The notes beneath the pieces were generated by a model. The model saw nothing but the letters and a program-made list of their open reading frames with translations. It ran no database searches and was not told the origin of the DNA. A stretch of 40,076 nucleotides of DNA, taken from positions 1 through 40,076 of the forward strand of contig NZ_QXIL01000019.1 of assembly GCF_004115745.1 (NCBI RefSeq), written 5' to 3'. The position numbers and the translations under genes were made by a program. This DNA is from Levilactobacillus suantsaii. Lineage in GTDB: Bacteria > Bacillota > Bacilli > Lactobacillales > Lactobacillaceae. Shown here piece after piece: positions 18,485-27,575 of the stretch. Positions within the stretch are counted from its first letter, which is position 1; every line of letters begins with the position of its first letter.

Positions 18485-19369
18485 CTAAGCTTCCAGGCTG
18501 GCCGTCAAAATCGCCAAGACTTTTTGCTGGGTAGGGGTCAGCACATGGGTGGTCCGGGAAACGATACTGGTGATGAATTCGGGTTGTTCGTCGTCTAACA
18601 GGGTCAACCGGACCACGTCGGAACGTTGCTGGGCGGCAATACTGGTCAAGAAAGTCACCCCGACGTCAGCGGCCACCATATTCATGATGACGTGAGTGTT
18701 GTTGGAGCGGTAGACCACGGTTGGGCGGAAATGATTGCGGCGGGTCAATTGGTTGAAGGCGGCATTATGGACGAAGTCGTCGGTGAAGAGGATGAAGTGT
18801 TCGTGACGCAATTCGCTAAAGGTAATGCGGCGGCGTTTGGCTAAGGGGTGGTGCTTGGACACAAAGATGGCGAAGGGTTGGTGGTCAAATTCACGGACCA
18901 ACAATTGCTGGTAGGAGAGAGGTTCAATGGATCCCAACAGGGCAATATCGGCTTCGCCGTTGCGAATGGCCCGCCGTAAGGTGACTGAGCCGCCTTCGAT
19001 GATGTGGATATCTTGAAGCATGTTTTGGGCTTGCAACTGTGCAGCAATCCGGGGAAAGTAGTGAGTCTCGATGATGGGCGGGAGAGCCAGGACGGTCTGT
19101 TGTTGCGTCAAACGATCGATTTCTTGGCGGGCAATCGACAATTCGTTTAACACAATGGTCGCGTGGGCCATGAGTTGTTGACCGGTGGGGGTGATGGTCA
19201 GCCGATTATGGACTCGGTCGCGTTGGACCAGGGTGGTGTGGTACTCGGCTTCGAGGCGCTTGATGGCCATGGTGATAGTCGGCTGGGTGACGTGAAAGTA
19301 GTCGGCGACCTTTGAAAAACTTTTTTGTTGAATTAATTGGTAAAAATAGGCTAAATCCTTGGTGTTCAT
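18485..19369 (-). CDS. LysR-family transcriptional regulator
   Basis: The 294-residue regulator starts MNTKDLAYFYQLIQQKSFSKVADYFHVTQPTITMAIKRLE, a typical LysR winged helix-turn-helix (residues 1-60). A two-lobed ligand-binding domain follows. The N-terminus resembles MleR-type regulators of lactic acid bacteria, but no malolactic gene is nearby. It is transcribed divergently from the aldehyde dehydrogenase/sulfoquinovose operon, 613 bases away. That makes it the best local candidate for the operon's regulator, an inference from position. ATG 19369 is chosen because GGAGGAAATT immediately precedes it. Confidence 0.85.
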   Translation of the reverse strand: MNTKDLAYFYQLIQQKSFSKVADYFHVTQPTITMAIKRLEAEYHTTLVQRDRVHNRLTITPTGQQLMAHATIVLNELSIARQEIDRLTQQQTVLALPPIIETHYFPRIAAQLQAQNMLQDIHIIEGGSVTLRRAIRNGEADIALLGSIEPLSYQQLLVREFDHQPFAIFVSKHHPLAKRRRITFSELRHEHFILFTDDFVHNAAFNQLTRRNHFRPTVVYRSNNTHVIMNMVAADVGVTFLTSIAAQQRSDVVRLTLLDDEQPEFITSIVSRTTHVLTPTQQKVLAILTASLEA

Positions 19370-19509
19370 GAATTTCCTCCTGATGAGCTGATAAATGGTG
19401 GCGCAATAAGGGGTCTTGATCGCGATGGGACGTTCTAAGCCGTATGTTGGCCTAGTCAATAAAAGCGTGGTTACGCCAATCAGCAACTCTTTGATTGCAA
19501 GCTTGTGGC

Positions 19510-19537
19510 TTGACGTCAGGCTAAATCATGGTAAAAT
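19510..19537 (+). promoter_or_regulatory. Strong promoter of a non-coding transcription unit
   Basis: TTGACG (19510-19515) and TAAAAT (19532-19537) are separated by 16 bases. Transcription would start near 19544. Confidence 0.6.
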
Positions 19538-19543
19538 TTGAGA

Positions 19544-19813
19544 GATTTACCACGGGTCTTAGAACCAGTTTGCCACGTTTAACGCCGATAGCCAAGAGAC
19601 TGGCCCTATTTTGGCGGGACGAATCGTCTCGCTGGACGGTCTAAGCACGTGACTGCACCCACAGAATAGAAGAAAGATTTGATTCAGGCAAAGTACGATT
19701 TAGCGAAGTCGCTTCAAATGTGGGGATGTTGCGACGAGATTGTGAAGACTTTGAGAACTCTATTACGGACTATAAACCACTAACGGCTGCTTCCTTTGGG
19801 AGCAGCCGTTTTT
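19544..19813 (+). ncRNA. Candidate structured small RNA or regulatory leader, about 270 nt
   Basis: Between the promoter at 19510 and the strong terminator at 19783 there is no credible protein gene. The longest frame is 38 codons, begins inside the promoter and lacks a ribosome-binding site. The sequence folds locally. A 7-bp hairpin GCGGGAC/GTCTCGC with loop GAATC is enclosed by AGACTG/CGGTCT around 19597-19653. A GTCGC/GCGAC pairing lies around 19710-19737. No known class (6S, SRP, tmRNA, RNase P, T-box) was recognised. It may be a free sRNA, or an attenuating leader of the operon that starts at 19983. Confidence 0.45.
19783..19813 (+). terminator. Strong terminator ending the non-coding unit
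   Basis: A 12-bp stem (19783-19794 with 19798-19809), loop TTT and five T residues. Confidence 0.85.
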
Positions 19814-19982
19814 GCGTATCGTTAGCTGTATACCGGGATTTAGATTACTTTAAATAAGGTGAAGGGTTGGTAAAGTTTCCGCCTTTTCTTAAGGCTATTT
19901 TGACCTTTTCTTCAAAACTTTCACAAATCAGAACTGCATACTTAATTTTAATTTCTTAGCAATCCTGAAAGGCGATGGTGAG
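19814..19982 (+). other. Region between the terminator and the sulfoquinovose operon
   Basis: It holds AT-rich sequence with a small hairpin GCCTT/AAGGC (19881-19895). Two copies of an AAAGTTT motif lie in inverted orientation, near 19873 and in the AAAACTTTC stretch that begins near 19914. These could be LysR-type operator half-sites. No clear promoter or catabolite-response element was found by eye. Confidence 0.3.
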
Positions 19983-21329
19983 ATGTCTCAAGAGACAGTG
20001 CTTCAAACAAATGTGGAACCGGTGACCGCTGAACAGTTAGAAAAGGCGTTAGCGGCGGGGGCAGATTATTTTGCCCACCAACCGAGTTCGCAGTTTGATC
20101 GGTGCCAGCAATTATTGAAGCTGGCGCAGTTGTTCGACGATCAAGCTGAGCAATTGGGTGTCCAAGCGGCCCATGATATGCATAAGCGTTTGGTTGAAGG
20201 ACAACAGGAGGCTCACGCAGCAGCTAATATCATCCGCTACTACGCCAATAATGGACCCGCATTGTTAAGCCCCAAACCATATGTGTACGGGCAAAATGAT
20301 GCGCATGCACAATTAGAGTATGACCCGCTAGGAATCGTCTTAGCGGTAGAACCTTGGAACTTTCCGTACACCCAAGTTATTCGGGTCCTAGCCCCTAACT
20401 ATCTTGCGGGGAATCCCGTGTTATTGAAGCCTGCTCGGTCGGTGGCCGGTTGTGCTCAGGCGATGGTCGCCTTGACCGAAAAGGCCGGCTTTCCGACCGG
20501 GGCTTTTACCAGCTTGAATTTGTCCCACGACCAAGTGGCTAACGTCATTGGCGATGACCGAATTCAAGGTGTCGCGGTTACTGGCTCAACTGCGGTTGGT
20601 CGCCACTTGGCCAGTCTGGCAGGCCAAAACGTTAAGCCGAGCACTCTGGAACTGGGGGGCAGTGATGCTTGCTTAGTTCTCGACGATGCGGATCTAGCAA
20701 CGGCCATTCTGGAGATGGCGACGTCGCGGTTACGGAATTCTGGTCAAACCTGTACGTCGGCTAAACGCTTCATCGTGCGACGCGAAGTGGCTGACCAAGT
20801 AATTGATGGTTTGACTAAAATCTTTAATCGTCAAACTATCGGTGATCCATTGGATGCGGCAACGACCTTAGCTCCGCTGGCGTCCAAGGCTGGTCAAGAA
20901 CGTTTGACGGCCCAAGTCAAATTGGCTCTCGACCACGGGGCTAAAGCGCTGGTCAAAGGTGGAGCCGTTGGTGAAACTGGCTTTCAACCAACGTTACTGA
21001 CGAATCTAACCGCCGATAACCCGGCGAGCCAAGAAGAATTCTTCGGTCCAGTAGCGCAACTATACGTCGTTGATTCTGATGAAGAAGCGATTCAGGTCGC
21101 CAATTCAACCCCATTTGGCCTGGCTGGGAGCATCTTTTCCCAGGATCTTTCACGGGCCAAGCATTTGGCTAGTCGCATGGCGACGGGTCAAGTCTTCATC
21201 AACAAGGGTTCTAGCGGAATTCCTGAATTACCATTTGGTGGCATCAAGCAATCCGGTTACGGCCGGGAGATGAGTGACCTGGGAATCTTAACGTTCATGA
21301 ACGCCAAGATTGTCGTGTTGCCAGATTAG
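19983..21329 (+). CDS. NAD(P)-dependent aldehyde dehydrogenase, probable sulfolactaldehyde dehydrogenase
   Basis: The 448-residue ALDH-superfamily enzyme has the cofactor motif PWNFP (124-128), GSTAVG (201-206), the catalytic base Glu223 in LELGG and the nucleophile Cys257 in SGQTCTSAKR. By sequence alone it belongs to the succinate-semialdehyde-dehydrogenase-like group. It is the first gene of an operon with a sulfoquinovosidase and a transaldolase. Its likely role is therefore to oxidise 3-sulfolactaldehyde to 3-sulfolactate, the terminal step known in sulfo-ED and Bacillus sulfo-TAL pathways. The specificity is inferred from context. The next gene follows after 12 bases. Confidence 0.8.
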   Translation: MSQETVLQTNVEPVTAEQLEKALAAGADYFAHQPSSQFDRCQQLLKLAQLFDDQAEQLGVQAAHDMHKRLVEGQQEAHAAANIIRYYANNGPALLSPKPYVYGQNDAHAQLEYDPLGIVLAVEPWNFPYTQVIRVLAPNYLAGNPVLLKPARSVAGCAQAMVALTEKAGFPTGAFTSLNLSHDQVANVIGDDRIQGVAVTGSTAVGRHLASLAGQNVKPSTLELGGSDACLVLDDADLATAILEMATSRLRNSGQTCTSAKRFIVRREVADQVIDGLTKIFNRQTIGDPLDAATTLAPLASKAGQERLTAQVKLALDHGAKALVKGGAVGETGFQPTLLTNLTADNPASQEEFFGPVAQLYVVDSDEEAIQVANSTPFGLAGSIFSQDLSRAKHLASRMATGQVFINKGSSGIPELPFGGIKQSGYGREMSDLGILTFMNAKIVVLPD

Positions 21330-21341
21330 GAGGTGGTGTGA

Positions 21342-22754
21342 TTGGAAACCACAACCACACAAACAAAAGTAAAGAGTTTTCCCCGGACGACCACATTACG
21401 CAATAAGATTGGGTATGCCATGGGAGACGTTGGTAACAACTTTTTATTCGACATGGGGCAGTTGTACCTGTTGAAGTATTATACAGACGTTTTGCAACTC
21501 CCATCGGCTTTGGCCGGCACGGTTTTCTTAGTGGCGAAGATTTGGGACGCTTTCATGGACATGGGGGTCGGCACCTGGATCGATAACCGCCAAAATATTG
21601 GGCCGCGGGGGAAATACCGACCATTCTTACTTTGGGCGGCCATTCCGTTAGCCTTACTGTTGATCGCCAATTTCTCCATCCCGGATTTTTCCATTACCGG
21701 GAAAATGATTTGGGCATATGTGTCCTACATGATTTTTGGGACCTGCTACAGTATTTCTAACGTGCCGTTCGGGTCGATGATTCCAACCATGACGCGGAAC
21801 AGTCAAGAACGTTCCGAACTCTCGTCGTTTCGGCAAGCCGGCTCTAACCTCGGCTTGATGTTGGCAACGATTGGGTTCATGCCCATCGTGAATCGCCTCC
21901 CGACGGATAAGAGTGGCTACTTAGTCGCGGTCGTGAGTTTTGCTGTGATTGGGGTATTGTGCCAGTGGACCGCTTACGCGAACATCCGCGAGGTTTATAA
22001 GGAACCCGCTAAACCTAAGCCCACTAAAGAAGATTTGAAAAAGAGCTTCCGGGCATTATTGAAGAACCGTCCGTTGGTGACATTGTGCCTGGTGAACCTC
22101 TTTACCTTCTCAGCTTTTAATTTAAAACTGACCGTGCAAGTTTACTATTGTGAATATGTGTTAAAGGACAATACAGCGATTTTTTGGCTCGGGGTCTTCA
22201 GTATCGGCATGGTCTTTGTTGCCGTCGCGTTGGTCCCGATGCTCACGAAATTTCTCGATAAAAAGACCGTTTACGTGATGGGTTGTCTGATTTGGGCGAT
22301 TGCCGATATTTTGGGCTTCTTCCTGGCCAGCAACACCACCATGTTAGTGATTTTGACTAGTATCGCCTACTTAGGTGATGGGTTTACCAGTGCCTTGAAC
22401 TGGGCGTTAGTTTCCGATTGTGTTGAATACGGTGAGTGGCAAAGTGGTATTCGGTCCGAAGGGATGGTCTACTCGGCTTTCACTTACTTCCGGAAACTTT
22501 CCCAAGCAATCGCCGGCTTCATTCCTGGTGTTATCTTGACTTGGGTCGGCTACGTGCCGAATCAGACGCAGACCGCCACAGCGATTCTAGGAATTCGCGG
22601 CTTGATGTTCTTCTATTCAGCGGGGATGGCGATTATGACCATCGTCGTGATGTATTACCTGTATCCACTGACTGAAGCCCGCTACCGGAAGATTCTAGCG
22701 GACTTGATCCACCGGCGCAAACGCGAACGCGCGACGGTTGCGAGTCAAAACTGA
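21342..22754 (+). CDS. GPH-family sugar/cation symporter, probable sulfoquinovose importer
   Basis: The 470-residue, roughly 12-helix membrane protein has the glycoside-pentoside-hexuronide (GPH) pattern. The N-terminal segment is KIGYAMGDVGNNFLFDMGQLYLLKYYTDVL, followed by AKIWDAFMDMGVGTWIDNRQ and GKYRPFLLWAAIPLAL. The start is TTG 21342 with AGGAGGTG nearby. Members import glycosides with H+ or Na+. In E. coli the sulfoquinovose locus uses GPH carriers (YihO, YihP), so import of sulfoquinovose or its glycerol glycoside is the natural reading. No sulfonate exporter is encoded in this operon. Confidence 0.8.
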   Translation: METTTTQTKVKSFPRTTTLRNKIGYAMGDVGNNFLFDMGQLYLLKYYTDVLQLPSALAGTVFLVAKIWDAFMDMGVGTWIDNRQNIGPRGKYRPFLLWAAIPLALLLIANFSIPDFSITGKMIWAYVSYMIFGTCYSISNVPFGSMIPTMTRNSQERSELSSFRQAGSNLGLMLATIGFMPIVNRLPTDKSGYLVAVVSFAVIGVLCQWTAYANIREVYKEPAKPKPTKEDLKKSFRALLKNRPLVTLCLVNLFTFSAFNLKLTVQVYYCEYVLKDNTAIFWLGVFSIGMVFVAVALVPMLTKFLDKKTVYVMGCLIWAIADILGFFLASNTTMLVILTSIAYLGDGFTSALNWALVSDCVEYGEWQSGIRSEGMVYSAFTYFRKLSQAIAGFIPGVILTWVGYVPNQTQTATAILGIRGLMFFYSAGMAIMTIVVMYYLYPLTEARYRKILADLIHRRKRERATVASQN

Positions 22755-22768
22755 AAGGAAGGGCATAA

Positions 22769-23440
22769 ATGAAATACTTTTTAGACAGTGCCAAATTAGA
22801 TGAAATCAAATTAGCTTATGAAAATTACGGTATCGATGGGGTCACGACCAATCCTAAGCACATCAAGAACAGTGGTCAACCATTCATGGTCGTGGTGCAC
22901 CAGCTCGCGGATTTTGCCGCTGATAAACCCGATTTTCCCATCTCCGTTGAGGTCAACCCACATTTGAGCACCAGCAAAGAAATGGTGACCATGGCGCAAC
23001 AATTACACGCCATCTCAGCCAATTTCGTCATCAAGATTCCCTGCACGCCGGCTGGCTTAGTGGCCGCCCGGGAATTGGAACAACAGGGGATTCGGACCAA
23101 CGTGACCCTAGTGTTCTCCGCGGCTCAGGCGTTGTGGCCAGCCCATTTTCAGGCGAAATACGTCTCACCATTCGTTAACTGGCAAGATATGACCGGTCAA
23201 GCGGGCATCCAAACGGTTCAAGAAATCACCAAAATTTATCGCAACTACGATTATCATACAGAAATCATCGTGGCTGCCGTACAAAGTGGGCGCCAGATGG
23301 TCGATGCGGCGTTGAGTGGGGCTGATATCGTGACGGCGGGGCTGGCGATTTACCAGCAAAGCTTTACGCACCCGTACACTGACGTGGGCCTGCAACGCTT
23401 CCAAGCTGCTTGGGACCAAACTAAAAAGGAGGCGGATTAG
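22769..23440 (+). CDS. sftT: Small transaldolase, probable 6-deoxy-6-sulfofructose transaldolase
   Basis: The 223-residue protein has the FSA/TalC-type fold: D6 in FLDSA, GIDGVTTNP (21-29), and the Schiff-base lysine K89 in FVIKIPCTPAGL. In ordinary small transaldolases the segment YVSPFVGR carries a phosphate-binding arginine. Here it reads YVSPFVNW (131-138), so that Arg is replaced by Trp. Loss of the phosphate anchor fits a sulfonated donor. In sulfo-TAL pathways SftT splits sulfofructose into sulfolactaldehyde and passes dihydroxyacetone to glyceraldehyde-3-phosphate or erythrose-4-phosphate. It is two bases from the isomerase gene. The symbol rests on operon context and is not proven. 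Confidence 0.75.
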   Translation: MKYFLDSAKLDEIKLAYENYGIDGVTTNPKHIKNSGQPFMVVVHQLADFAADKPDFPISVEVNPHLSTSKEMVTMAQQLHAISANFVIKIPCTPAGLVAARELEQQGIRTNVTLVFSAAQALWPAHFQAKYVSPFVNWQDMTGQAGIQTVQEITKIYRNYDYHTEIIVAAVQSGRQMVDAALSGADIVTAGLAIYQQSFTHPYTDVGLQRFQAAWDQTKKEAD

Positions 23441-23442
23441 CT

Positions 23443-24779
23443 ATGGCGATTGTTTATTTACCCTTAGTGCGACCACAATTTGACGCCAAATTGGCTGAGC
23501 AACGTTTTACCGCGTCGCTAGCCGCCTTGAAGTTAAGTATTCCGGACCTAGTGAGTCCGCAGAAACCTTTAACGGCGCCCGCCGAGTTGCTCGCGTTCAT
23601 CGAGAACTTACCGGCAGACCCCACGGCTTTGATCATTCACCAATTGACCTTTACCGGCCAAGAATTTAGTGATGAGGTCGTCAAACGCTACGCCGTGCCA
23701 ACTTTGATTGTGGCTGAAGAGGAACCGAGCGTCCACGGGTGGTTACACCTAAACGCGTTGACTGGTCTCTTGAGTACCGCTAACAATCTGCATACCCATG
23801 GACTGCCATATCAGCAGTATTTGGGTGGACTGGACACGTCAGCAGGGACCCAAGTGGTTCAACAATTCGTCAGCTCAGTTCAAGCTTACGATGCCTTACA
23901 ACACCTTACTTTGGGAGTAGTCAGCACTTATCCGCTGGGCTTTAACTTTTCGGGGACGCAACCGAATCGGTTACGGCAAACGTTTGGGGTCCGGTTACGG
24001 CACTACAGCATTGATCAGGCCTTCAAGGATGCCGAACAATTGGCGCCACAAGATTATGCGGAACAATTGACGTACGCCCAACAAAATTTGAAAGGGCTAG
24101 ACCCGAAGGACCCGCGGGCCATTCGGATGGCCCAGTACTTGACGGTGATGCACCAAAAAGTTGACCAAGATCACTTGGGCGCCATTGCGTCACGGTGCTG
24201 GCCCGACTTCTTCGATAAGTTTGACAGCGCCCCGGGTGGGGTCTTCTCACAGTTGACGGATCAACTCACGCCGGTCGCCGAAGAAGGAGATATCCACGGA
24301 GCTGTCTCGATGGCGTTACTGCAAGCTTTGACCAATAACCAGTCACCGGCATTCTTGGGTGACGTGACGCGCTTAGATCCAGAAGACAACACGGTGACTC
24401 TCTGGCAGATTATGGGGCTTACCAACTTTGCAACCCGGATTATCCGGCAACAGCAGGCGTGCACCCGAACCGGCATATCGGCGTGAGCGTCGATGGGGCC
24501 TTGAAGCCTGGCCCGGTAACGTTAGTTCGAGTCCACTGGGACGGGCAACACTATCAACTGGTGACCCTGACTGGGAAGGTCTTGGCAGCCGAACCACAAT
24601 TCAACGGGGTTTCTGGTAAGGTTCAAATCACGCTTCCCGTGAATACCTTATTAGATGAATTGGCTCAAATGGGAGCCGAATCTCACTTTGCCTTGATCTA
24701 CGGTAACTATGCGGCGGCCATCACCTGGCTAGGACGCTGGTTAGGCGTTCCTGTAACGACTTTAACAAAGGGGGAATAG
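23443..24779 (+). pseudogene. L-fucose-isomerase-like protein (probable sulfoquinovose isomerase), frameshifted
   Basis: Frame 23443-24486 (347 residues, ending ...RIIRQQQACTRTGISA) and frame 24459-24779 (106 residues) join into one protein of about 445 residues. Family marks are AEEEPSVHGW, SRCWPDFF, EEGDIHGAVSMALLQ and FLGDVTRLDPEDNTV in the first part, and SHFALIYGN in the second. These place it in the L-fucose/L-arabinose isomerase superfamily. One base is missing near 24457-24459: restoring it gives QQQA-VHPNRHIGVSVDG. In sulfo-TAL operons an aldose-ketose isomerase converts sulfoquinovose to sulfofructose, which is its expected job here. It starts two bases after the transaldolase with GGAGG and ends three bases before the GH31 gene. 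Confidence 0.7.
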
Positions 24780-24782
24780 CCC

Positions 24783-26843
24783 ATGAAAATTGTCCTGGCG
24801 GCAGGAAAATTGAGTGTTATGGATCCTACGGTCGTGGACGACTGGCAGCTCCAGTGGGCTCAACCCGCCGAAACGATTCTTCACAGTACTGCGGCCCAAC
24901 CCGCCATTTTGGTGGGGGAAGGTCACGGAGACTTCAAAATGACGAATGGTAACTTTCGTATCACGGAACAACGGCATTCGCAGATTGGGTTGCCCTGGGT
25001 CCGCAACCTCGAGCAGGCGGGGAACACGGTTCAATTTGATTTGGCACCGACCCCGACGAGTCCCAGCTACTTACAGCTGACGCTCCATTACCGGACGGCT
25101 GGATGGCACTTGGATTTTCGGCCGCTAGCGGGACAGTTGAATCGCTTTTGGTTGCGGCTCTTGGCCCAACCTAGTGACCGTTTCTACGGGGCTGGCGAGC
25201 AGTTTAGTGCCTTCGAATTGTCTGGCCGACGGTTCCCCATTTGGACTTCAGAACCGGGAATCGGCCGGAATAAGCAAACGGCAGTGACCCAGGCCGCTGA
25301 CCGAGCTAACGGGGGCGGTGGTGATTACTACACCACTAATTATCCACAGGCCACTTATTTGACCAGTCGACACCAATTGGTCCACTTGGCGACCAGCGCC
25401 TATGCCGTCTTAGACTTTCAAGACCAACGCTTCACGGAGCTTTCAGCCTGGGAGATTCCTACGGCACTTTATTTGGGGCACGCGGAAACTTTAGCCGCTA
25501 CTGTGGCCTTGAATAAGGATTGGTTTGGTACCCAACCACCACTACCCGATTGGTTACTTAGCGGTGTCGTGCTAGGGCTCCAGGGAGGCACCACTGCAGT
25601 TAAAACGGCGGTGACTCAGGCCCAACAGGCAGGAGTCAATATTGCTGGGGTATGGACACAAGACTGGGTCGGCCCGCTGACCACCAGTTTTGGTAAACGT
25701 CTGCACTGGGATTGGCACTTAGACGAAAAGACCTATCCGCAGTGGCCACAACAGGTCCGGCGTTGGCGGCAACAAGGCATTCGTTACCTGGGGTACATCA
25801 ACCCTTATTTAGTGACGGATGGCCCACTGTTTAAGACGGCTGCCGATAACCAATATTTGGTCCAGACTCAGGCGGGGGAACCGTACCTGATTGATTTTGG
25901 TGAATTTGAGTGTGGTACGGTCGATCTGTTGAATCCGGCAGCTTTTCACTGGTTCCAGACGTTGATTGAGACCCGATTGATCGGCGGTGGCATGAGTGGC
26001 TGGATGGCTGATTTCGGCGAGTATTTACCGACCGATGCACGACTCTACGGCAACGTGGATGCAGAAACGGCACATAACCGGTGGCCGGTCCTGTGGGCCA
26101 AATTGAACCGCGCGGCCTTAGACGCAACGGGAACGACCGGTGACGTGGTTCCGTTCTTTCGTTCTGGCGGCGTAGGCACGCAAAAGTACGCACCACTTCT
26201 GTGGGCTGGTGATCAGAGTAGCGATTGGACCCCGGATGATGGGATTCCTTCCGCGGTGACGGGAATGCTAACGACGGGCCTCACCGGTAATGGTCTCACC
26301 CATAGTGACATTGGGGGGTACACGAGTCTGTACGGCGTTAAACGCAGTAAGGAATTATGGCTTCGGTGGGCGGAACTGGCGGCGTTCACGCCAGTAATGC
26401 GGACCCACGAAGGCAACCGGCCAGCGGAAAACTTCCAACCGAACCAAGATCAAGCCGCCTTACGCCAATTGGCGCGCCTGACCACGATTCACCGCCATCT
26501 CTTACCGTATTTCCGGCGGGTGATGGCAGAAAATACGGCGACGGGGTTACCCGTGATGCGACCGTTGATGCTAGCGGATGAGGCCAATCAAGCCTTGTGG
26601 CATGAACACAGTAGTTTCCTGTTGGGGAATGATTTGCTCGTAGCCCCAATCTTGCATCCGCACACGACCCAACGGACCGTGACCTTGCCTGCTGGTGACT
26701 GGGTTCACCTGTGGAGCGGGCGGCAACTGACCGGGGGACAAACAGTCTCGGTCGTAGCGCCCTTGGGTCAGCCCCCAGTCTTTTACCGGGCTGATGCGGC
26801 GGATCAAGCGACTTTTAAAGCGTTATGCGATAAAGAGAATTAA
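24783..26843 (+). CDS. yihQ: GH31 sulfoquinovosidase (YihQ type)
   Basis: The 686-residue glycosidase aligns by eye along its length with E. coli YihQ, for example GWMADFGEYLPTD and HSDIGGYTSLY. The catalytic nucleophile is D410 in WMADFGEYLPTD and the acid/base is D477 in WAGDQ. The three residues that bind the sulfonate in YihQ (R301, W304, Y508) correspond to R306 and W309 in GKRLHWDW and Y513 in DIGGYT. All five key residues keep a constant +5 offset. It hydrolyses sulfoquinovosyl glycerol or sulfolipid headgroups to free sulfoquinovose. No signal peptide is visible, so it acts in the cytoplasm after import. It is the last gene of the operon and ends at the 26854 terminator. Confidence 0.92.
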   Translation: MKIVLAAGKLSVMDPTVVDDWQLQWAQPAETILHSTAAQPAILVGEGHGDFKMTNGNFRITEQRHSQIGLPWVRNLEQAGNTVQFDLAPTPTSPSYLQLTLHYRTAGWHLDFRPLAGQLNRFWLRLLAQPSDRFYGAGEQFSAFELSGRRFPIWTSEPGIGRNKQTAVTQAADRANGGGGDYYTTNYPQATYLTSRHQLVHLATSAYAVLDFQDQRFTELSAWEIPTALYLGHAETLAATVALNKDWFGTQPPLPDWLLSGVVLGLQGGTTAVKTAVTQAQQAGVNIAGVWTQDWVGPLTTSFGKRLHWDWHLDEKTYPQWPQQVRRWRQQGIRYLGYINPYLVTDGPLFKTAADNQYLVQTQAGEPYLIDFGEFECGTVDLLNPAAFHWFQTLIETRLIGGGMSGWMADFGEYLPTDARLYGNVDAETAHNRWPVLWAKLNRAALDATGTTGDVVPFFRSGGVGTQKYAPLLWAGDQSSDWTPDDGIPSAVTGMLTTGLTGNGLTHSDIGGYTSLYGVKRSKELWLRWAELAAFTPVMRTHEGNRPAENFQPNQDQAALRQLARLTTIHRHLLPYFRRVMAENTATGLPVMRPLMLADEANQALWHEHSSFLLGNDLLVAPILHPHTTQRTVTLPAGDWVHLWSGRQLTGGQTVSVVAPLGQPPVFYRADAADQATFKALCDKEN

Positions 26844-26909: not shown

Positions 26910-27575
26910 TTAGTTGATTTTACCGGTCGTATTATTGTAATCGTCGACGCGGTAGTGGCCGTTTTTAACGGTCAGTTTGGTAATACTGCCGTTATCGACC
27001 GGGACCGAAATATCGATGTCCGGACCAAACTTGGACACGATACTGCGAATAGTCGTACTGTGAGTGGCGATGACGATTTTATCGCCGTCGCTGGCTTGGG
27101 CGACCACACGGTCTAAGGCGGGTTGGACTCGCTCCCAGAACTCGGCGTTATCTTCGGCATCACCGTAAGGATCTTGGGCCTTGAACATGTCCTTGGTCTT
27201 TTCGATGGTCAAATGCCGAATCATCGCGTTGAAGGAGTCTAAACCTACAGGACTGCCAATGGCATGCCAGACGAAACCAGTATCGAGGCCTTCGAAGTAG
27301 CCAAAGTTCTCTTCGCGAAAGGCCGGTTCCGTTTGTAAGTCACCGACGGCCAAAGCCTGGTTAGCCGTCAAGATGTGTTGGGCCGTGGTCTGCGCCCGGT
27401 TGGTGTCGCTGGCGTAAGCAGCGGCTAGGGGTAACTTGGCTAACCGCTCGCCAGCATTCTTAGCGTCGGCAATTCCCTTCGCGGTTAAGGGGGAATCGGA
27501 CCACCCCTGAATACGGTGGTATTTATTCAAATAGGTTTGGCCGTGACGGACCAAATAAAGTTCAACTGTCGCCAT
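26910..27575 (-). CDS. Histidine phosphatase superfamily protein (phosphoglycerate mutase-like)
   Basis: The 221-residue protein starts MATVELYLVRHGQTYLNK with the catalytic RHG motif (residues 10-12). A second histidine lies in IVIATHSTTIRSIV near residue 175. This is the layout of cofactor-dependent phosphoglycerate mutase-like phosphatases (GpmB group), which dephosphorylate small metabolites. The substrate is unknown. The gene lies 52 bases downstream of the antiporter gene on the same strand and is probably co-transcribed with it. Confidence 0.85.
   Translation of the reverse strand: MATVELYLVRHGQTYLNKYHRIQGWSDSPLTAKGIADAKNAGERLAKLPLAAAYASDTNRAQTTAQHILTANQALAVGDLQTEPAFREENFGYFEGLDTGFVWHAIGSPVGLDSFNAMIRHLTIEKTKDMFKAQDPYGDAEDNAEFWERVQPALDRVVAQASDGDKIVIATHSTTIRSIVSKFGPDIDISVPVDNGSITKLTVKNGHYRVDDYNNTTGKIN

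Follow-up and report, generated by a model that had tools for sequence, protein, structure and literature searches.

A sulfo-transaldolase operon of probable sulfolactate-forming layout with a split isomerase gene in Levilactobacillus suantsaii

We describe an operon for the breakdown of sulfoquinovose (SQ) in a window of 40,076 nts, which is contig C10 of the Levilactobacillus suantsaii genome (G000, a 2.43 Mb draft in 70 contigs); unless another locus is named, coordinates refer to this whole window. Five functions are packed on the plus strand between positions 19983 and 26843, with intergenic gaps of 2-14 bases: an aldehyde dehydrogenase (SftD), a glycoside-pentoside-hexuronide (GPH) symporter (SftA), a small transaldolase (SftT), a fucose-isomerase-like protein (SftI) and a glycoside hydrolase of family GH31 (SftG). 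We favor, with a probability of about 0.6, the reading that this is a transaldolase-type sulfoglycolytic (sulfo-TAL) operon with the sulfolactate-forming layout, whose isomerase was recently lost in this genome. An earlier note on this DNA, made from the letters alone, had described five closely spaced genes. The aldehyde dehydrogenase, symporter, transaldolase and GH31 genes stand as described, all on the plus strand, but no single open gene encodes the isomerase: two overlapping frames match successive parts of one SftI model, a split that the earlier note had overlooked.

By its sequence, SftG is a YihQ-type sulfoquinovosidase (SQase). The seven YihQ positions that we take to be catalytic or sulfonate-binding (Q262, Q288, R301, W304, D405, D472 and Y508) all have the identical residue in SftG at a constant offset of +5 (Q267, Q293, R306, W309, D410, D477 and Y513). 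Five of these matches (D410, D477, R306, W309 and Y513) had already been pointed out in the earlier note and are all found again, and the equivalents of Q262 and Q288 join them. Compared with the sequences of solved structures, six proteins of the YihQ/SQase type score 622-669 bits, and other GH31 proteins score at most 155. The closest is 8r56, which is named just "Glycosyl hydrolase, family 31", followed by the Eubacterium rectale SQase 6pnr.

SftT is equally well separated. The top three sequences amongst solved structures score 284-276 bits, one of them named BmSF-TAL (a sulfofructose (SF) transaldolase), and the next best transaldolase scores 163.5. A search of 398 genomes of the class finds three others at 270-285 bits, the next being at 165.5. 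In a tree of 47 rows, the window SftT sides with BmSF-TAL across a branch supported at 100/100 that divides 22 rows from 25 other transaldolases, a split at which, as the program warns, long branches meet. The 22 rows are the window, 16 named lactobacillus rows, BmSF-TAL, genome G123, which belongs to the same family, and three further Bacilli rows; left out of the tree are L111 (internal stop), L053 (the second transaldolase of this genome, with no match at the cut-off) and the short SftT of Secundilactobacillus similis (L038). The earlier note had assigned the operon to the sulfo-TAL type, and had named clustering of the transaldolase with phosphate-using enzymes as the result that would speak against it; SftT falls instead on the SF-transaldolase side, and on this placement we reject a transaldolase of the phosphate type. 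The SftT of G123 (locus L002) groups with the Bacillus enzymes (87/90), which the other lactobacilli do not. G123 shares its genus label with G170 and G191, taken as Loigolactobacillus, and the SftI model scores 576 bits there, the highest in the family, beside SftT and a GH31.

For SftI, the first piece matches the model NF048012 over positions 3-323 (Table 1) and the second over 342-441 (76.1 bits). When the genome is scanned with the same model, the two parts cover positions 2-324 and 327-441, with the second part starting at 24414 (93.3 bits). The SftI proteins of G381 and Levilactobacillus zymae align in one frame over 23443-24417 and in a second over 24408-24770; the frame break lies at about 24406-24413. 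Homology in the first piece stops near residue 321, before both His322 and His415 (L. zymae numbering), and since the frame changes there, the product would be without the C-terminal domain that holds these two residues. Together with E281 and D307, H322 and H415 are invariant across 17 SftI rows, and by analogy with AraA and FucI we presume that the four are metal ligands. A whole-genome profile search finds neither a second SftI-model match nor a second Fucose_iso_C domain in the window's own genome. None of the six other sft-bearing Levilactobacillus genomes has a break in SftI. Of 20 named loci, 19 carry it in one frame; the exception is S. similis, where the break lies at another place. 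As its genome reads here, the strain is probably unable to carry out the pathway.

Matches to the SftI model are found in 44 of 397 Lactobacillaceae genomes, 22 of them strong (231-576 bits for the best piece) and 22 weaker (28-105 bits); the weaker ones are probably other isomerases. Two of the 22 strong genomes have a split SftI, the window's and G295 (taken as S. similis). Compared with solved structures, the L. zymae SftI gives by sequence just weak unrelated matches, and the SftI profile gives weak matches to arabinose isomerases (E 0.27-0.63). Because these matches are weak, we folded the intact L. zymae protein with AlphaFold2 (mean predicted local distance difference test, pLDDT, 89.3; predicted template-modeling score, pTM, 0.90). 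The model is similar to both L-arabinose isomerase (2ajt, TM 0.84) and L-fucose isomerase; as modeled, SftI has the arabinose/fucose isomerase fold.

A second component is missing from this genome. DUF4867 (SftX) is tied to sulfo-TAL and other sulfoglycolytic clusters, and has been proposed to be a mutarotase or ring-isomerase (PMC11968277). It has 0 matches in the window's genome, in a search of nine genomes that is positive in the other eight. DUF4867 occurs in 9 of 35 Levilactobacillus genomes, which include 6 of the 7 that bear sft (G000, G111, G234, G327, G381, G399 and G400) and 3 of the 28 others (Fisher p = 0.0003, uncorrected for kinship). The G400 stretch is identical to that of L. 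cerevisiae (L033) over 14,571 bases, and absence of sft from the 28 was judged at the shared locus alone for 8 and by a search of the whole genome as well for 20. The Levilactobacillus DUF4867 lies away from the operon, and no sft gene adjoins it in either of the two stretches, out of five, that were read. In Paucilactobacillus, Secundilactobacillus, Ligilactobacillus and Liquorilactobacillus it precedes sftI (identified by Pfam in one member and by similarity in the others). DUF4867 may not be a strict requirement of sulfo-TAL, and a stand-alone gene that co-occurs with sft in Levilactobacillus offers a natural test of its function. Three Levilactobacillus genomes (G317, G337 and G347) have a DUF4867 gene without sft.

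The earlier note had suggested that a lactobacillus with this operon could make sulfolactate. For the present strain this is weakened: its SftI is split, the genome offers neither another SftI nor another fucose-isomerase C domain, and DUF4867 is missing. The break is known from one strain of the species, and we lean toward a recent mutation over a contig fault. Several results weigh against the favored reading. None of the 397 Lactobacillaceae genomes reaches the curated cut-off of NF048012 (700 bits), so the identity of SftI rests on context, similarity and fold. Two of 31 window orthologues are frame-broken, SftI and an APC-type amino-acid permease on the minus strand (809-2201, split into 809-1375 and 1344-2201), which is unbroken in G381 and L. 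zymae (~96% identity); with two such genes, a local assembly fault in contig C10 is possible. Lastly, the ratio of nonsynonymous to synonymous differences per site (pN/pS) of SftI relative to L. zymae is 0.188 before the break and 0.141 after it (other genes, 0.106-0.241), and relative to L. cerevisiae, L. suantsaiihabitans and L. angrenensis the first part has 0.271-0.288 and the second 0.311-0.345, with synonymous divergence (dS) saturated in most of these comparisons. Neither part shows clear relaxation, which leaves a very recent break or a contig fault.

The alternative to be taken most seriously, which we still consider unlikely, is that the operon is intact and working, and that SftI only looks broken through a sequencing or assembly error in contig C10. 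The second split gene of the contig speaks for it, as do the 79% and 84% identity that the two SftI parts keep to L. zymae and the draft state of the genome. A generally bad assembly is unsupported by a sample of 159 kb of contig C33: compared with G381, none of its 100 orthologues has an internal frame break (0/98 in a reverse-direction control). A fault local to C10 may still exist. This comparison counts frame changes only, not in-frame stops. The stops seen in orthologues occur close to the N end, ahead of the next methionine, and are read as effects of start choice, except in one frame of 176 residues where a second stop falls at residue 131. Against an error we also count the missing DUF4867 and the damage to the same operon in relatives, which in L. 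brevis CD0817 comes from a transposase gene. It is very improbable that the pathway serves another sulfosugar, or a source of sulfofructose that needs no SQ isomerase, such that the loss of SftI is tolerated: the remaining four operon genes are open and look constrained, but the six other sft-bearing Levilactobacillus genomes keep SftI unbroken, and the GH31 has the SQase residues. Programmed frameshifting, which would yield a full SftI from the two overlapping frames with a shift of one base, is rejected because all but one of the 20 named loci have SftI in a single frame, and in the exception the break lies elsewhere in the gene; inspection of the window's break by eye also shows no slippery heptamer. 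We give next to no credence to an ordinary operon for an alpha-glucoside and a fructose-6-phosphate aldolase, as the generic names TIGR00875 and "alpha-glucosidase" would have it, given that SftT scores 203 under the TIGR00875 cut-off of 246 and falls in the SF-TAL clade, and that the GH31 has the seven SQase positions.

In the known route, SQ is converted to sulfofructose, a transaldolase transfer to glyceraldehyde-3-phosphate follows, and aerobic Bacilli oxidise the sulfolactaldehyde, where anaerobic Firmicutes reduce it (PMC9594981). For the intact relatives of our operon, the substrates and direction that we infer are as follows. SftA would import sulfoquinovosyl glycosides or SQ, SftG would cleave the glycoside in the cytosol, and SftI would convert SQ to sulfofructose. 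SftT would move the glycerone part of sulfofructose onto glyceraldehyde-3-phosphate to give fructose-6-phosphate and sulfolactaldehyde, which SftD would oxidise to sulfolactate, to be exported from the cell. As the earlier note had it for sulfofructose kinase and 2-keto-3,6-dideoxy-6-sulfogluconate (KDSG) aldolase, family searches find amongst the operon genes none of the markers (SF kinase, SF-1-phosphate aldolase, KDSG aldolase) of the Embden-Meyerhof-Parnas (sulfo-EMP, sulfo-EMP2) and Entner-Doudoroff (sulfo-ED) variants. The genome has two phosphoketolase genes; by our reasoning, a heterofermenter would turn fructose-6-phosphate into glyceraldehyde-3-phosphate, acetyl-phosphate and CO2, regenerating the acceptor. 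Oxidation of sulfolactaldehyde would add reducing power, to be dumped on fructose, oxygen or similar. As this surplus would need an outside electron sink, the operon would be useful only in some niches, which fits its patchiness without proving the need.

For SftD, all 20 proteins of its cluster that we compared, including the window's and two from sulfo-EMP2-like clusters, have Arg134/Arg251 and a WNF motif, and the three other aldehyde dehydrogenase family proteins of the window's genome are without the second Arg. In PMC10599462, Arg171/Arg289 of RlGabD are proposed as sulfonate contacts, SlaB of Bacillus megaterium has His/Asn there, and human succinate semialdehyde dehydrogenase also has the Arg pair. 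The SlaB-type features given in the same paper (His164/Asn280 and an FNV tripeptide) are not in the window SftD. Because the human enzyme shares the Arg pair, and because the best NCBIfam model for SftD, succinate semialdehyde dehydrogenase, scores below its cut-off, the pair is not diagnostic, and it is the operon context that suggests that SftD acts on sulfolactaldehyde. The sulfolactaldehyde-reductase family PF03446 has 9 matches in the genome, none of them in contig C10.

Amongst known systems, the sulfolactate-forming sulfo-TAL (sulfo-SFT) of Bacillus (Priestia) megaterium and B. aryabhattai likewise has an SftT, an SftI-type isomerase, an SQase and an aldehyde dehydrogenase. The window differs in the Arg/Arg of SftD where SlaB is reported to have His/Asn, in the split SftI, in a genome with no DUF4867 match, and in an operon where a family search finds no separate exporter-like gene. 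With the sulfo-TAL of Agathobacter (Eubacterium) rectale and Enterococcus gilvus, which forms 2,3-dihydroxypropane-1-sulfonate (DHPS), the likeness is that of SftG to the E. rectale SQase; the window operon has an aldehyde dehydrogenase in place of a gene of the sulfolactaldehyde-reductase family. The nearest operons, flanks included, are those of L. zymae, L. brevis CD0817, L. cerevisiae, L. suantsaiihabitans and L. angrenensis, which places the genome in the genus of L. zymae and L. brevis, in agreement with the lactobacillus host proposed before. These operons have the same order D-A-T-I-G, and the same locus where both flanks are present; unlike the window they keep SftI unbroken and DUF4867 elsewhere in the genome, and sftG is broken in L. 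brevis CD0817. Paucilactobacillus, Secundilactobacillus, Ligilactobacillus ubinensis and Liquorilactobacillus sicerae have homologous SftD, SftA, SftT and SftI, but DUF4867 is in the operon, and sftG comes first or is not found within the stretch (L043 and L049).

The sft operon is present in 7 of 35 Levilactobacillus genomes, and related operons are found in four more genera. In five of the seven it sits between oppF and a phosphatase-like gene, the other two stretches reaching one flank only; in species without sft the gap between these flanks is as short as ~0.1 kb. The phosphatase-like gene has a best match of at least 69% identity in all 35 genomes. Inspected gene by gene, 5 of 19 sulfo-TAL operons (18 relatives and the window) are visibly broken: the window (SftI), L. 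brevis CD0817 (an ISL3-type transposase gene within sftG), G381 (sftG), S. similis (sftG, sftA and sftI) and S. paracollinoides (sftG and sftA), where several of the broken relatives are drafts that may contain errors of their own. The 19 exclude L048, L050 and L051, which have another pathway type, and L002 is outside the set; single stops in L039, L045 and L047 precede the called starts and are not counted as breaks. In L. brevis CD0817 (L035, 9337-12945), sftG residues 94-135 flank the transposase gene on both sides, so the insertion seems accompanied by a duplication of ~126 bases. In Loigolactobacillus jiayinensis and L. binensis (L050 and L051, ~5.2-15 kb) and Lacticaseibacillus kribbianus (L048, 6.3-10.3 kb), an SftI-like isomerase adjoins a class II aldolase (PF01116). 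L050, the one analysed with Pfam, also has a phosphofructokinase (PF00365), an aldehyde dehydrogenase and an NMT1-type ABC transporter, the sulfo-EMP2 family set, and L051 has the same clusters. We put forward as tentative, and rather doubtful, a wider reading in which lactic acid bacteria are an overlooked and eroding guild of sulfoglycolysers, the operon being kept by niche and repeatedly lost, and this strain having been caught in the middle of the loss, with its isomerase broken and DUF4867 gone. Such a guild would span sulfolactate-type sulfo-TAL operons in at least five genera and the sulfo-EMP2-like clusters of Loigolactobacillus.

Plant sulfolipid and lactobacilli meet in silage, sourdough and fermented leafy foods. 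If the intact operons work, lactobacilli would convert SQ to sulfolactate, which is reported as used by Bilophila wadsworthia (introduction of PMC11489063). The sulfo-TAL pathway and its enzymes are already known, and the lactobacillus operon is a further instance, with this copy probably off. Gene-content calls would overstate the capacity, as the window strain has homologues of all five functions and a pathway that is probably off. We found no literature on sulfo-TAL in lactobacilli, in a search that was without the 2020 iScience founding paper and most subscription papers. The term "Lactobacill" is absent from the main texts, supplements excluded, of PMC12890257, PMC13219744, PMC8397734 and PMC10599462; PMC12330013 mentions it twice, both times for one Ligilactobacillus variant with falling abundance.

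Table 1. Features of the sft operon and its flanks in the window.
Feature	Position	Strand	Evidence
sftD-like aldehyde dehydrogenase, putative sulfolactaldehyde dehydrogenase	19983..21329	+	PF00171 369 bits; Arg134/Arg251 and WNF
sftA-like GPH symporter, putative importer of SQ or SQ glycosides	21342..22754	+	PF13347 294.7 bits; TIGR00792 459.6 bits (cut-off 231)
sftT, sulfofructose transaldolase	22769..23440	+	BmSF-TAL 8bc3 283.9 bits; clade support 100/100
sftI piece 1: residues 1-321 SftI-homologous, then ~25 out-of-frame residues; stop at 24484	23443..24486	+	NF048012 232.1 bits, positions 3-323
sftI piece 2: C-terminal part, other frame	24459..24779 (frame open from 24363; homology from ~24408)	+	NF048012; PF02952 30 bits
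sftG, YihQ-type GH31 sulfoquinovosidase	24783..26843	+	NF007746 836.8 bits (cut-off 553); seven YihQ-equivalent residues
Block upstream of sftD, possible promoter/operator	19885..19942	+	Alignment: conserved across six Levilactobacillus operons; suggested function
Terminator-like stem and T run	19781..19816	+	Read by eye; absent from terminator-scan list
LysR-type regulator, flanking	18485..19486	-	PF00126/PF03466
Histidine-phosphatase (phosphoglycerate-mutase-like) gene, right end of shared locus	26910..27575	-	PF00300

The LysR-type regulator is probably not dedicated to sft, because its gene is retained at the locus in five Levilactobacillus stretches without sft (L127, L131, L146, L147 and L156). 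In the conserved block upstream of sftD, a pattern scan finds only a weak terminator-like stem at 19881-19895 and no promoter. Across the window, promoter-like sites number 6 compared with 6.8 in shuffled sequences, and terminator-like sites 12 compared with 9.4, which is not informative. The window has no tRNA, and no structured RNA at gathering thresholds. L. zymae has, between the LysR gene and sftD, a 563-aa gene (L032, 2474-4165) that we read, without a family search, as a malate-type enzyme; window positions 19487-19982 have no significant match to it, and the terminator-like stem of Table 1 lies there. Near the right end of the contig (36738-38176), two open reading frames resemble, by eye, an IS3-type transposase pair.

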